DNA of 64,000 nt, taken from Geodermatophilus sabuli. GTDB lineage: Bacteria; Actinomycetota; Actinomycetes; Mycobacteriales; Geodermatophilaceae. The position numbers and the translations under genes were made by a program. Shown here one piece after another: positions 58,314-64,000 of the stretch (position 1 is its first letter; every line of letters starts with the position of its first letter). Below the pieces are notes generated by a model that was not told the origin of the DNA, searched no databases, and saw nothing but the letters and a program-made list of their open reading frames with translations. The stretch is taken from assembly GCF_900215145.1 (NCBI RefSeq), contig NZ_OBDO01000009.1, positions 62,001 through 126,000 of the forward strand. The letters run 5' to 3'.

Positions 58314-59696
58314 TCAGACCTCAGCGGGAGCCTGGTCGGCAGTCCGCTGCGCCGGCACCGGCGCAGTCCTCCCCGCCTCCGGTTCCAGACCCCAGAGGGT
58401 GGGGTCCTGGCCTGCGATCTCCACGCGCTCGTCCACCCGGAGGCCACCGATGCGCTCGAAGAACAGCGCCATCACCAGTGCCGGGACGCCGGCGAGCAGG
58501 ACGATCGTCACGACGCCGACGAGCTGCCACCAGGGCGTGATCTCCGCGTGCTGGAAACCGAACTCACCCTCCAGGCCGAAGTACCCGCCGGTCTTCTCCC
58601 CCCAGGCGAAGAAGCCGGTCGCGATGGCGCCGACGATGCCCGGGCCGAGCGCGAGCGGGACGACCTTGCTCTCGTCGATCCGCAGCCGGCGCATCAGAGC
58701 GGCCGTCCCGAGCGCGACCAGCGGGCCGGCCGCCCCCAGCACGAGGCACTCCCACGGCCGACCGACGTCGAACAGGGCCCCGCAGATGACCAGACCGCAG
58801 ACCGGGCCGAGGAAGGCATAGGTCGGGTTCTTCTGACGGTGGGCGATGATGCCGCCGACGACGCCCCCGGCGAACACCGCACACGACCAGTTCAGCATCA
58901 CCAGGCCGATGCCGGACGACGTCATGGAGATGCCGAAGTACCCCTGCCCGGGGATGATGTAGCCGCTGCCGATCGAGATGATGGGCTTCGCGAAGAGGAT
59001 CAGCAGCACGCCCACCGCGACCAGGCCGGGAGCCTGGGCCATGGGCCGCGCGCCGCTGGGGTGCGGGGTGAACGCCCCGAGGCGGGGGCGCAGCCGCCAG
59101 GCCAGCACGAGCGCGAATGTCCCGGCGAAGATGTACAGCGGGAACACGCCGTCGTAGTCGTGCACGCCACGGTTCGTGAGCGGCGACAGGCTGCCCCAGC
59201 AGAGGTACCCGGCCAGGGGCGACAGGACGGCTCCCACCACGAAGGACATGACGTAGAGCGGGCCGGACCGGATGCGCTCCACCACGCCGGAGTGGATCAG
59301 CGCCATGGTGGCCATGCCGAAGGTCGCGAAGAACGGCACGAAGACCTGCAGGACGTCGGCCTCGGGCAGCACGGCCGGGTCGATGCGGTTGCCCGGCGTG
59401 TTCATGAACGCGCCGAACAGCCACCAGTCGCTGACCGCTCGACTCAGCGGGTCCGGGACGCCGAAGGCCTGGTTGAACTGCCACTGCCAGAGGGCGTAGC
59501 CGCCGAGCATGAGCCCAGCGCCGGCGATCATGACGGCCACCAGCTTCTGCACCCACGTGTTCACGACGTTCTGGCGGCGGACCAGACCCGCGTCGACCAG
59601 CCCCAGCCCCAGGACGACCATGATGATCGCCACGACGCCGAGCACGTACACGAAGGCCAGCGTCATGAACTCGAACGTTGCCTGTTCTTCGAACAT
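58314..59696 (-). CDS. Amt-fold membrane protein without the pore histidines
   Basis: A 460-residue protein with about eleven helices in the order of the ammonium transporter family: long N-terminal extracellular start, LMLGGYALWQWQFNQAFG, then GYLCWGSLSPL, and late GPGIVGAIATGFFAWGEK with a cytoplasmic tail of about 50 residues. In true Amt proteins the helix after the conserved Asp has a His, and the helix after DDPLDVF has a second His. Here these regions read DYDGVFPLYIFAG and IDESKVVPLALGPGIVG, so both pore histidines appear to be replaced. ATG 59696 has GGGAGG upstream. It is last in the catabolic operon, so it may carry another substrate. Confidence 0.75.
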   Translation of the reverse strand: MFEEQATFEFMTLAFVYVLGVVAIIMVVLGLGLVDAGLVRRQNVVNTWVQKLVAVMIAGAGLMLGGYALWQWQFNQAFGVPDPLSRAVSDWWLFGAFMNTPGNRIDPAVLPEADVLQVFVPFFATFGMATMALIHSGVVERIRSGPLYVMSFVVGAVLSPLAGYLCWGSLSPLTNRGVHDYDGVFPLYIFAGTFALVLAWRLRPRLGAFTPHPSGARPMAQAPGLVAVGVLLILFAKPIISIGSGYIIPGQGYFGISMTSSGIGLVMLNWSCAVFAGGVVGGIIAHRQKNPTYAFLGPVCGLVICGALFDVGRPWECLVLGAAGPLVALGTAALMRRLRIDESKVVPLALGPGIVGAIATGFFAWGEKTGGYFGLEGEFGFQHAEITPWWQLVGVVTIVLLAGVPALVMALFFERIGGLRVDERVEIAGQDPTLWGLEPEAGRTAPVPAQRTADQAPAEV

Positions 59697-59880
59697 GTTC
59701 CGATCCCTCCCAAACCGCCCCGGCCGACCCGGGGGTGGACTGGTGCGTCCCCGGGCACCCCGGGGACGGACTGCGACGTGCACTCCTCCGGCTGGCGGGC
59801 AGCCCTCACCCAGGCAGGAGCAGTTCAGGAGCGGGCACGCCCGCGGAAGGCCCTTCCGGGCCGGCCCGGCAGACCGGGTG

Positions 59881-62139: not shown

Positions 62140-63692
62140 AGCCCGCTGCGGGGGTCGATCAGGTCCGGGACCGTCCAGCCCTCGGTGTCGTACTCGGACA
62201 TGCACTGGTCGACGAACGAGACGAACTCGTCGACGCGGCCGGCGGCGGTGGCTCCGAGGTAGGCGTCGACCTGGACCTGCTCGTGGTTGCCGGCGTAGTT
62301 CCGCTCGTAGAGCTCGTGCCGGCTGCCGAAGTCGGTGCCGATGGCATCCCAGGCGAGCTTGAGGACCTTGACCCGCTCCTCCGCGGAGAAGCCGTTCGAC
62401 CCGCGGACGTACTTGTCGAGGTAGGGACGCAGCTCCTCCACGCCCCAGTCCATGGCGGAGGAGTTGGTGTAGATCAGCGCGCTGGCGATGTCCTTCTGGA
62501 AGATGTCCCGGATGCGGGGGTACAGCTGCCCGCCCATGATCCGGTAGACGGTGACGGCCTCGACGTTGGGCACGTACGTGCCGTCCGACCACTTGGTGGC
62601 CCCCTGCACCATCGCGGTGACCAGCGACCAGAACAGGTGCCGGTAGGTGATCAGCTCGCCGATCCGGGTCTGCACCCCGCGGAAGTCGCGGGTCCCGGTC
62701 ATCTCCAGGCTCTTGAGCAGCACGCCGCAGAGGAAGTCCAGCTTCACCGCGTAGCGGATGCAGCCCTGCAGGAGTCCGCGCCAGATGAACCCGGAGCCCA
62801 TGTAGAACTCCGAGGCCTTGTCCGGGTCGTAGCAGAAGACGTTCTCCCACGGGACGAAGACGTTGTCGAAGATGAAGACCGAGTCGTTCTCGTCCAGGCG
62901 GCTGGACAGGGGGTTGTCGAACGGGCTGCCGGTCCGCCCGGCGGCGTACTCGTAGGAGGGCCGGCTGATCAGCTTCACTCCCGGCGTCGCCATGGGGACG
63001 GCGAACATCGCCGAGAACTCCTTGGTCTTGATCGGGGTGGGCGAGTAGTTGCCGATGAAGTTGTACTGGCACAGGACGGAGCCGGTGGCCACGACCTTGG
63101 CGCCGGAGACGAAGAGACCCGCGTCGGTCTCCTTCTCGACGTGCATGTACACGTCCTTGACCTGCTCCATCGCCTTGTTGCGGTCGACGGGCGGGTTGAC
63201 GATCGCGTGGTTGAAGTAGAGGACCTTCTCCTGGCCCTCCTTGTACAAACGGCGCGCGTTGTCCTGGAACGGCGCGTAGTACTCGGTGTTGGAGCCGAGG
63301 GTGGAGAGGAAGCCGGCCTTGTAGTCCGGCGTGCGGCCCATGAAGCCGTAGGTCTGCCGGGCCCACTCGGCGCAGGCATCGGCGCCCGCCTGCAGCTCCG
63401 CGATGGAGTAGGGCGCCTTGAAGAAGGCGTGGGTGAACCCGCCGTTGCCCGTGTCGGTCGGCACGATCAGCTTCTGGTTGCGGCTCTCGTCGTGCAGTGC
63501 GTCGTAGAGGCGGGCGATCATCCGCGTGCTGTTGCGGAACGCCGGGTGGGCCGTGACGTCCTCGACCCGCTCACCGCGGAACCACACCTCGCGGCCGTCG
63601 CGCAGGCTCTCGAGGTACTCGTCCCCCGTCTGGGGCCGGGTGGTGACGGGCTCGGGCATGGTCGTGGGCTCGGACAACAGTTGCTCGGTCAT
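62136..63692 (-). CDS. HpaB-type flavin-dependent monooxygenase
   Basis: A 518-residue oxygenase component of the 4-hydroxyphenylacetate 3-monooxygenase/chlorophenol monooxygenase family, which uses free FADH2 from a separate reductase. Family blocks are TGDEYLESLRDGREVWFRGERV at the start (in outline), FMGRTPDYKAGFLSTLGSN, DAGLFVSGAKVVATGS, the NPLSSRLDENDSVFIFDNVFVPWENVF substrate/flavin region (in outline) and GTDFGSRHELYERNYAGNHE near the end. No reductase gene is in view. It is the first gene of the operon; ATG 63692. Confidence 0.9.
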   Translation of the reverse strand: MTEQLLSEPTTMPEPVTTRPQTGDEYLESLRDGREVWFRGERVEDVTAHPAFRNSTRMIARLYDALHDESRNQKLIVPTDTGNGGFTHAFFKAPYSIAELQAGADACAEWARQTYGFMGRTPDYKAGFLSTLGSNTEYYAPFQDNARRLYKEGQEKVLYFNHAIVNPPVDRNKAMEQVKDVYMHVEKETDAGLFVSGAKVVATGSVLCQYNFIGNYSPTPIKTKEFSAMFAVPMATPGVKLISRPSYEYAAGRTGSPFDNPLSSRLDENDSVFIFDNVFVPWENVFCYDPDKASEFYMGSGFIWRGLLQGCIRYAVKLDFLCGVLLKSLEMTGTRDFRGVQTRIGELITYRHLFWSLVTAMVQGATKWSDGTYVPNVEAVTVYRIMGGQLYPRIRDIFQKDIASALIYTNSSAMDWGVEELRPYLDKYVRGSNGFSAEERVKVLKLAWDAIGTDFGSRHELYERNYAGNHEQVQVDAYLGATAAGRVDEFVSFVDQCMSEYDTEGWTVPDLIDPRSGL

Positions 63693-64000
63693 GTCTGCTC
63701 CTCAGGTGTAGCCGGTCGTGGGCTCGGGCTGGACGGTCCGGTGGGCGAGACGGGAAGCCCCGTGGGGAGCCTTGGCAGACCGCCGGATCGACGGCAGAGT
63801 GACCTGCCTGAGCCGGCGGGCGCCGTGGCTTCCCGGGGTTGGCGTGGCGCTGAACGTACTCAGCGATGCATACAAGTCAAGCGGTCGCTGCATACACAAA
63901 ATCTGTTGCCTGTATGCACTGCACGTCGGTGCACGGCCACCCGTGTCGGCGACCCGCTACTCTGCGACAGCCGGCGATCGTGATCCACCGACGCCCAGCC
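63693..64000. other. Promoter region of the catabolic operon
   Basis: 308 bases without a gene. The part from about 63850 to 63930 has much lower GC than the rest of the window and holds the three TGCATACA-type half-sites described separately. The window ends before any divergent regulator gene can be seen. Confidence 0.6.
63867..63918. promoter_or_regulatory. Operator with three TGCATACA half-sites
   Basis: TGCATACA at 63867-63874 and 63889-63896 and its inverse TGTATGCA at 63911-63918 are spaced exactly 22 bases start to start, two turns of the helix. The last two form an inverted repeat with a 14-base spacer. Such sites fit a GntR-, IclR- or MarR-type repressor for the HpaB operon, about 175 bases from its start. 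Confidence 0.7.

Follow-up and report, generated by a model that had tools for sequence, protein, structure and literature searches.

A Putative Catabolic Operon Fronted by an HpaB-Type Oxygenase in Geodermatophilus sabuli and Its Likeness to a Hydroxypyridine Degradation Gene Set

Organization of the Operon and Its Control Region

A stretch of 64,000 nucleotides (nt) from the 5.5-Mb genome of the soil actinobacterium Geodermatophilus sabuli (contig NZ_OBDO01000009.1, C7:62001-126000), referred to as the window (74.1% guanine plus cytosine, GC), was analyzed for a putative catabolic operon at its end and for the pathway that this operon might encode. Open frames and Pfam profiles define the leftward gene order HpaB, alpha/beta hydrolase-RidA (one open frame), FAH, and Amt-fold protein, all on the minus strand. 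The first gene (62136..63692) encodes the oxygenase component of an HpaB-type flavin-dependent monooxygenase (518 amino acids, aa; PF11794 289 bits, PF03241 210 bits). Its frame overlaps by 4 nt with the second frame, which consists of an alpha/beta hydrolase half (61233..62139; PF00561; likely GTG start at 62137-62139) and a RidA half (60817..61215; PF01042; possible internal GTG start at 61213-61215 behind GAGGAG). A gap of 36 nt separates the RidA half from the gene for a FAH-family enzyme (59881..60780; 299 aa; C-C hydrolase/decarboxylase family; PF01557 221 bits), and a gap of 184 nt separates the latter from the gene for an Amt-fold membrane protein that lacks the twin histidines (58314..59696; PF00909 130.5 bits, cut-off 23.2). 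An earlier note on this DNA had described four leftward frames with overlaps or short gaps, which holds for the frames, the overlap, and the RidA-FAH gap but not for the FAH-Amt gap.

The operon is preceded by a region of low GC content (50.0% at 63850-63925); only 7 out of 63,924 overlapping 76-nt stretches of the window are equally low and all of them start at 63845-63853, that is, they represent the region itself. Three putative operator half-sites (63867..63918) are found here, TGCATACA at 63867, TGCATACA at 63889, and TGTATGCA at 63911. The motif TGYATRCA has three copies in the 64 kb (0.53 expected; at least three copies in 3 out of 100 shuffles), all packed into these 52 bp in 22-nt steps, in agreement with the low-GC region and repeated half-sites that had been reported before. 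Genome-wide, the longer motif CTTGTATRCA has three copies (reversed control: 0), namely at the HpaB promoter, at the promoter of a flavin reductase gene, where the site TGTATACA lies ahead of the gene (at 65347 in window numbering, past the window end), and at C10:453834 on another contig. The C10 site separates another GntR gene from a divergent phosphoenolpyruvate (PEP)-mutase/isocitrate-lyase-like gene (assigned by eye) and is <10 kb from an amidohydrolase gene that is discussed below.

The earlier note had proposed looking past position 64,000 for a regulator and a flavin reductase, and both were found there: a divergent GntR/FCD regulator gene (226 aa) at 64029-64709 and, on the strand of the operon, the flavin reductase gene at 64746-65312 (window numbering). 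A promoter for the operon is proposed at 63853..63880 on the minus strand, with a -35 element TTGACT (63875-63880), a 16-nt spacer that contains a half-site, and a -10 element TACGTT (63853-63858), because this block is conserved in G. ruber; the block would thus act as both promoter and operator. A sigma-70 consensus scan returned nothing at its threshold and did not report this block. Past the last gene, the strong hairpin noted previously at 58258..58291 was confirmed by folding (minimum free energy of the surrounding 77 nt = -45.7 kcal/mol, z = -4.8 versus shuffles). It has no U-run and a terminator scan reported none; it is a probable terminator.

Conservation of the Gene Set and Apparent Loss of an Amidohydrolase Gene

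The same gene set is present in G. ruber, the nearest named relative by HpaB (96% identity; operon proteins 82-96% identical), and on a plasmid of Rhodococcus rhodochrous BX2, and is therefore not unique to this genome; the earlier note had proposed a search for the set in other actinobacterial genomes. The order in G. ruber is flavin reductase, GntR, amidohydrolase, HpaB, hydrolase-RidA, FAH, and Amt (names by comparison). The BX2 plasmid carries GntR, amidohydrolase, HpaB, hydrolase, RidA as a separate gene, and FAH, with transposase genes on both flanks and neither an Amt nor a flavin reductase gene adjoining the set; identities to the window are 84% for HpaB, 65% for FAH, 65% for RidA, and 69% for GntR. 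TGYATRCA is found in G. ruber as two copies 22 nt apart before the operon and one before the flavin reductase, and in BX2 as one copy in the GntR-amidohydrolase gap. The gene set is rare, since an HpaB match at E 1e-235 or better was obtained in 1 out of 397 sampled genomes of the order, which is the genome studied here.

An amidohydrolase gene is the first gene of the set in both G. ruber and BX2 and is absent from the window operon. The window set, which had been described as compact, does contain its four genes but is thus incomplete. The window leader tracks the leader of the G. ruber amidohydrolase gene to just before the ribosome-binding region and then follows the amidohydrolase-HpaB gap, and the switch at 63737..63762 is the probable scar of the lost gene. 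A clean deletion is the simplest reading of these sequences, since the gene is present in both relatives but not in the lineage of the window. The best other match of the genome to the G. ruber amidohydrolase (475 aa) is encoded on contig C10 (about 60-61% identical). The usual metal ligands HxH, Lys, His, His, and Asp are present in 9 out of 9 aligned amidohydrolases.

A Recurring Back End with Different Hydroxylases

Loci examined in this study are numbered L (L010, the BX2 set; L023, contig C10; L047, contig C17). Seven loci, including those of G. ruber itself and of C10, contain an amidohydrolase sharing 54% identity or more with the G. ruber enzyme (L002, L010, L023, L024, L025, L036, and L037). 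RidA, alpha/beta hydrolase, and flavin monooxygenase are present in all seven, and FAH in six. L010, L023, L036, and L037 were also retrieved through the amidohydrolase alone; L002, L024, and L025 came from searches with the hydrolase-RidA protein and are therefore biased in these counts. The monooxygenase is of the HpaB type in two loci and of the PF01494 type in five (assigned with Pfam for L023, L025, and L036 and through 79-96% identity to the L023 enzyme for L024 and L037), so that in G. sabuli itself (C10) and in four other genomes the back end stands behind PF01494-type monooxygenases. The C10 amidohydrolase is surrounded by a PF01494 monooxygenase, FAH, GntR, RidA, and two alpha/beta hydrolases, and L036 consists of five co-directional genes (monooxygenase, RidA, hydrolase, amidohydrolase, and FAH). 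The amidohydrolases of L036 and L037 are 84% identical and the monooxygenases 28%, which suggests that the hydroxylase was swapped while the back end was retained.

Three plasmid regions with distant amidohydrolases served as a control. One (39%) was unannotated, and the other two (29% and 33%) had no Rid, FAH, or HpaB among their annotated genes, one of them having an alpha/beta hydrolase, although plasmid gene tables are incomplete. Likewise, pairs of alpha/beta hydrolase and Rid genes on Rhizobium/Agrobacterium plasmids (26%; two regions) had no oxygenase or FAH among the annotated neighbors. Among seven plasmid regions with relatives of the C10 monooxygenase, three (L026, L027, and L031) have an adjoining annotated amidohydrolase and an ATP-binding cassette (ABC) transporter. 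These amidohydrolases are longer (548-550 aa), and those of L026 and L031 gave no match to the references at 1e-6. A fourth region (L029, Variovorax) is a meta-cleavage cluster and the other three lack such a set. L027 is located on the BX2 plasmid ~225 kb from the HpaB set and comprises a relative of the C10-type monooxygenase, a substrate-binding protein, the longer amidohydrolase, the ABC transporter, and an XRE regulator; this arrangement also occurs in Rhodococcus PD04 and, joined by a cupin gene, in Arthrobacter crystallopoietes.

The Rid Domain and Its Fusion

In an alignment, the catalytic arginine of RidA (Arg105) is replaced in 8 out of 8 cluster copies, by Ser in the window, G. ruber, BX2, L025, and P0251 and by Asn in C10, L024, and L036. 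This arginine is required for the imine deaminase activity of RidA (PMC8113886), and the available text of a second study describes it as essential, with ~10% of RidA proteins carrying a serine in its place and the arginine-less Rid4-7 subfamilies remaining mysterious in function (PMC4433059). The earlier note had pointed to RidA relatives that deaminate 2-aminomuconate and other enamines, but canonical imine hydrolysis or 2-aminomuconate-type deamination is not predicted for a RidA domain without the catalytic arginine. The presence of a Rid domain in the window and in all seven amidohydrolase loci allows the guess of a role in a step after ring opening.

The hydrolase-RidA fusion that had been pointed out is indeed one open frame in the window, but it is local: among the 120 homologues listed (of 267) it is present in 3, one of which is the query itself, and these represent two species and one distant protein. 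The GAGGAG and GTG sequences in the window and in G. ruber match the position of the separate RidA start in BX2, so that free RidA may also be made from this internal start. An AlphaFold model of the fusion protein is confident for the hydrolase domain and of low confidence for the Rid half.

The Amt-Fold Protein and NicX-Type Clusters

The Amt-fold protein shares with the Amt/Mep/Rh transporters membership in PF00909 and the AmtB residues Asp160, Trp148, Phe103, and Phe107, but scores below the TIGR00836 cut-off (131.9 versus 343.3 bits) and differs in both pore histidines and in Phe215, which is replaced. In comparison with Escherichia coli AmtB, Tyr takes the place of His168, and either Ala or Leu that of His318, according to which alignment is used. 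The protein of G. ruber, with 91% identity, is alike. The available text of one study reports that twin-histidine variants of AmtB turn from a specific transporter into an unspecific channel (PMC9040831), and ammonium selectivity is therefore not expected of the Amt-fold protein. A search of the 397 sampled genomes at E 1e-60 or better identified seven proteins in five genomes, and both pore histidines are gone in all seven.

The gene neighborhoods of the copies other than that in the window were compared. Each of the five relatives with 60-64% identity (own contig C17, G507, G544, G639, and G075) adjoins a NicX-like gene, and all five share as further neighbors an isochorismatase-type hydrolase, a pair of PEP-utiliser and PPDK_N genes, a molybdopterin-dehydrogenase FAD subunit, CoxG, and an alpha/beta hydrolase. 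The NicX-like gene is complete in L046 and L050, cut by contig ends in L047 (32 residues seen) and L049 (227), and cut by the edge of the stretch examined in L048 (63 residues seen); the L050 protein matches the 2,5-dihydroxypyridine 5,6-dioxygenase 7cn3 at E 7e-91. These NicX-type 2,5-dihydroxypyridine clusters thus have the Amt-fold protein and a GntR-type gene in common with the window set and differ from it in the ring-opening enzyme; neither the window nor L009 was found to contain a NicX-like gene. More distant Amt relatives on plasmids (34-35% identity) lie near methylamine-type genes. We infer that the Amt branch without twin histidines may serve pyridine catabolism, with the heterocycle, its product, or ammonium as the possible cargo. 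A plain ammonium exporter was considered and is less favored, given the missing twin histidines and the relatives in NicX-type clusters. A single-sequence AlphaFold model of the protein (pLDDT 46) was not used.

The genome of G. sabuli contains a second Amt gene without twin histidines (62% identical) on contig C17 (C17:1-13522), together with the shared cluster and the start of a NicX-like gene. To our knowledge, no search aimed at it having been made, no description exists of a cluster with Amt, isochorismatase, PEP-utiliser, and NicX-like genes. NicX-like ends were found at four contig ends, on C17, C10, C11, and C3 (L047, L056, L057, and L058), two of them starts and two of them ends; it is therefore probable that the genome has two NicX copies, nearly identical to each other, at which the assembly was interrupted.

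Enzymes of the Operon and Comparison with Known Pathways

The solved structure nearest to HpaB is 4oo2, followed by 4-hydroxyphenylacetate 3-monooxygenases. The alignment shows that HpaB retains the Arg, Tyr, and His of the phenol-hydroxylase substrate site. The window thus shares with HpaB/HpaC systems the family, the two-component design, this site, and a flavin reductase gene with a common motif. It differs in that no homoprotocatechuate ring-cleavage gene was spotted nearby by eye, no profile search having been made for one. HpaB reaches 650 bits against the TIGR02310 equivalog cut-off of 885 and is under both NCBIfam equivalog cut-offs; plain 4-hydroxyphenylacetate degradation was rejected on this score and on the lack of a ring-cleavage partner spotted by eye. 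The catalytic triad of the alpha/beta hydrolase (Ser121-Asp244-His273, counted from the GTG at 62139) is invariant in 26 out of 26 aligned relatives, and a PDB search identified meta-cleavage hydrolases (HsaD/BphD-type) as the nearest solved relatives of this half. The structure closest to the FAH enzyme is 6v77, a "putative HpcE".

The earlier note knew of no described system with exactly this set, but a very similar one, Kpi, is described in Arthrobacter sp. IN13 (PMC7356986). According to the available text of that report, KpiA (374 aa, PF01494) makes 3,4-dihydroxypyridine from 4-hydroxypyridine, the amidohydrolase-like KpiC (475 aa, PF01979; 28% identical to enamidase) acts as a ring-cleaving dioxygenase, the alpha/beta hydrolase KpiB (295 aa) leads on to 3-formylpyruvate, pyruvate and formate are the proposed products of the FAH enzyme KpiD (288 aa), and the regulator KpiR1 (224 aa) is of the FadR type. 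The likeness lies in the flavin monooxygenase, the alpha/beta hydrolase, the FAH enzyme, and the FadR/GntR-type regulator, with an amidohydrolase candidate in G. ruber and BX2 but not in the window operon. Sizes also agree, with 475 aa in both the G. ruber amidohydrolase and KpiC, 299 aa in the window FAH enzyme and 288 in KpiD, and 226 aa in the window regulator and 224 in KpiR1. In contrast, the window has HpaB and a flavin reductase in place of the single-component PF01494 KpiA, has no KpiC-type ring opener, carries an additional Rid domain, and encodes an Amt-fold protein where Kpi has a nucleobase-type permease.

A likeness to the Rut system is given by Rid (RutC), alpha/beta hydrolase (RutD), and flavin reductase (RutF) alongside a flavin oxygenase; the window differs in having HpaB rather than RutA, an extra FAH enzyme, and a Rid domain without the arginine. 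A Rut-like pyrimidine pathway was rejected, with 68.6 of 169.1 bits for RutC, 76 of 238.5 bits for RutD, and the RutF cut-off also missed. Pyrrole degradation was considered as a further candidate and not adopted. A literature search returned no paper uniting HpaB, RidA, FAH, and flavin reductase in one gene cluster, and none tying 4-hydroxyphenylacetate 3-monooxygenase and flavin reductase to hydroxypyridine degradation; the single match for an ammonium transporter in a gene cluster for dihydroxypyridine degradation concerned a beetle metagenome.

Proposed Pathway and Alternative Explanations

A nitrogen-containing ring is likely to be the substrate because of the parallel to Kpi and the Amt relatives beside NicX-like genes. 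The explanation that we favor, with moderate confidence, is that the operon serves the inducible breakdown of a hydroxylated N-heteroaromatic ring of the hydroxypyridine/pyridone type and represents an HpaB-fronted variant of a Kpi-like pathway. HpaB enzymes hydroxylate beside a phenolic OH, which is chemically the same as the KpiA reaction. The GntR/FCD regulator would sit on the TGYATRCA sites until the substrate or a metabolite releases it, and the Amt-fold protein would carry the compound or a product. HpaB and the flavin reductase would hydroxylate the ring beside the OH, as in the conversion of 4-hydroxypyridine to 3,4-dihydroxypyridine, and a KpiC-like amidohydrolase-fold enzyme, lost from the operon and possibly supplied by the C10 copy, would open the diol ring. 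The alpha/beta hydrolase would then deformylate the open product, the Rid domain might assist amine loss, and the FAH enzyme would split the acylpyruvate to pyruvate and formate or a homologue. The proposal of the earlier note, an inducible pathway for a nitrogen-containing or amino-substituted ring with its own transporter, thus appears largely right in view of the regulator, the Kpi parallel, and the NicX-like neighbors; what needs correction is that the RidA domain has no catalytic arginine, the Amt-fold protein has neither pore histidine, the fusion is local, and one enzyme is missing here.

Several observations weigh against a Kpi-like pathway for an N-heteroaromatic ring. The link to Kpi (KpiA-D, MT469879) is through families, sizes, and gene set rather than sequence, and the window operon itself has no ring-opening candidate. 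In a PDB sequence search, the G. ruber amidohydrolase came closest to Xaa-Pro dipeptidase, arginine carboxypeptidase, and ochratoxin-type hydrolases, and its match to enamidase covers 59 residues only, whereas KpiC reportedly shares 28% identity with enamidase. FAH was not found in L025, and the Rid domain lacks Arg105 in all copies. A sixth Amt relative (L051, 47%) has no NicX-like neighbor and none of the shared cluster genes. The Variovorax cluster is aminophenol-like: next to a monooxygenase 40% identical to that of C10, it contains RidA, two FAH genes, and genes for a 4-hydroxy-2-oxovalerate aldolase and a 3-hydroxyanthranilate dioxygenase. Strain BX2 is reportedly a triclocarban degrader (PMC10098447) and not described for pyridines, which says nothing on the cluster.

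The relatives of the amidohydrolase in the PDB also fit a different role, that of a genuine amidase acting on an amide conjugate to release a phenol or N-heterocycle; this would be a dispensable entry step, and the window operon would work on the free compound. The usual metal ligands in all nine proteins and the clean loss of the gene with retention of the rest of the operon agree with such a role. However, the amidohydrolase recurs with the same back end and differing hydroxylases, as expected of a central step, the sets contain no other enzyme recognized as ring-opening, and KpiC, which belongs to this superfamily and has the same length, opens a pyridine ring as far as the available text describes (PMC7356986). 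An amidase is thus a doubtful alternative.

A nitrogen-bearing benzene ring (aminophenol or similar) is an unlikely substrate. In this case HpaB would hydroxylate a phenol, an enzyme encoded elsewhere would open the ring, and the meta-cleavage-type hydrolase, Rid, and FAH would finish the pathway. The HpaB family is mainly phenol-acting, and the retained phenol-site residues, the HsaD/BphD-type relatives of the hydrolase, and the RidA and FAH genes beside the C10-monooxygenase relative in Variovorax are in line with such a substrate. No extradiol dioxygenase, aldolase, or acylating dehydrogenase was recognized by eye in the window or in G. ruber, however, and none is annotated in the BX2 cluster, where a catechol 1,2-dioxygenase gene lies ~5 kb beyond FAH; the association of the Amt relatives with NicX-like genes also argues for a pyridine-type compound. 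A Rid protein does act in the 2-aminophenol pathway, but according to the available text this protein, AmnE, has a conserved cleft arginine (Arg117, assumed equivalent to Arg105) that the window Rid lacks (PMC6742747).

Decay of the window copy, in which loss of the amidohydrolase gene and merging of hydrolase and RidA left no working pathway, is improbable despite the deletion scar and the rarity of the fusion among the homologues listed, as the remaining frames are all open, the proposed promoter and half-sites are kept in G. ruber, the proteins retain their 82-96% identity to those of G. ruber, and a related amidohydrolase is encoded on C10.

The hydroxypyridine/pyridone explanation can be extended, tentatively, to a joint reading that seems possible rather than probable. 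The Amt branch without twin histidines would be a dedicated transporter for pyridine compounds in both NicX-type and HpaB clusters, and, at the same time, a ring-opening back end of fixed composition (amidohydrolase-fold dioxygenase, hydrolase, Rid without the arginine, and FAH) would be combined with interchangeable flavin hydroxylases matched to different N-heterocycles. If true, the operon would offer a genetic handle on hydroxypyridine/pyridone degradation by soil actinobacteria, such pathways would be seen to exchange their hydroxylase and to keep their ring-opening back end, and roles could be tested for Amt-fold proteins without the ammonium-selective histidines and for Rid domains without the catalytic arginine.

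Additional Features of the Locus

Ahead of the Amt gene, the FAH-Amt gap contains a hairpin-bearing stretch (59734-59790; hairpin GTCCCCGGG/CCCGGGGAC) that is near-identical in G. ruber, the remaining gap being less alike; an Rfam search of 59600-60000 returned no match. The operon is adjoined on the other strand (54698-58193) by genes for succinate dehydrogenase/fumarate reductase-type subunits (translations read by eye), and the same neighbors are found in G. ruber.

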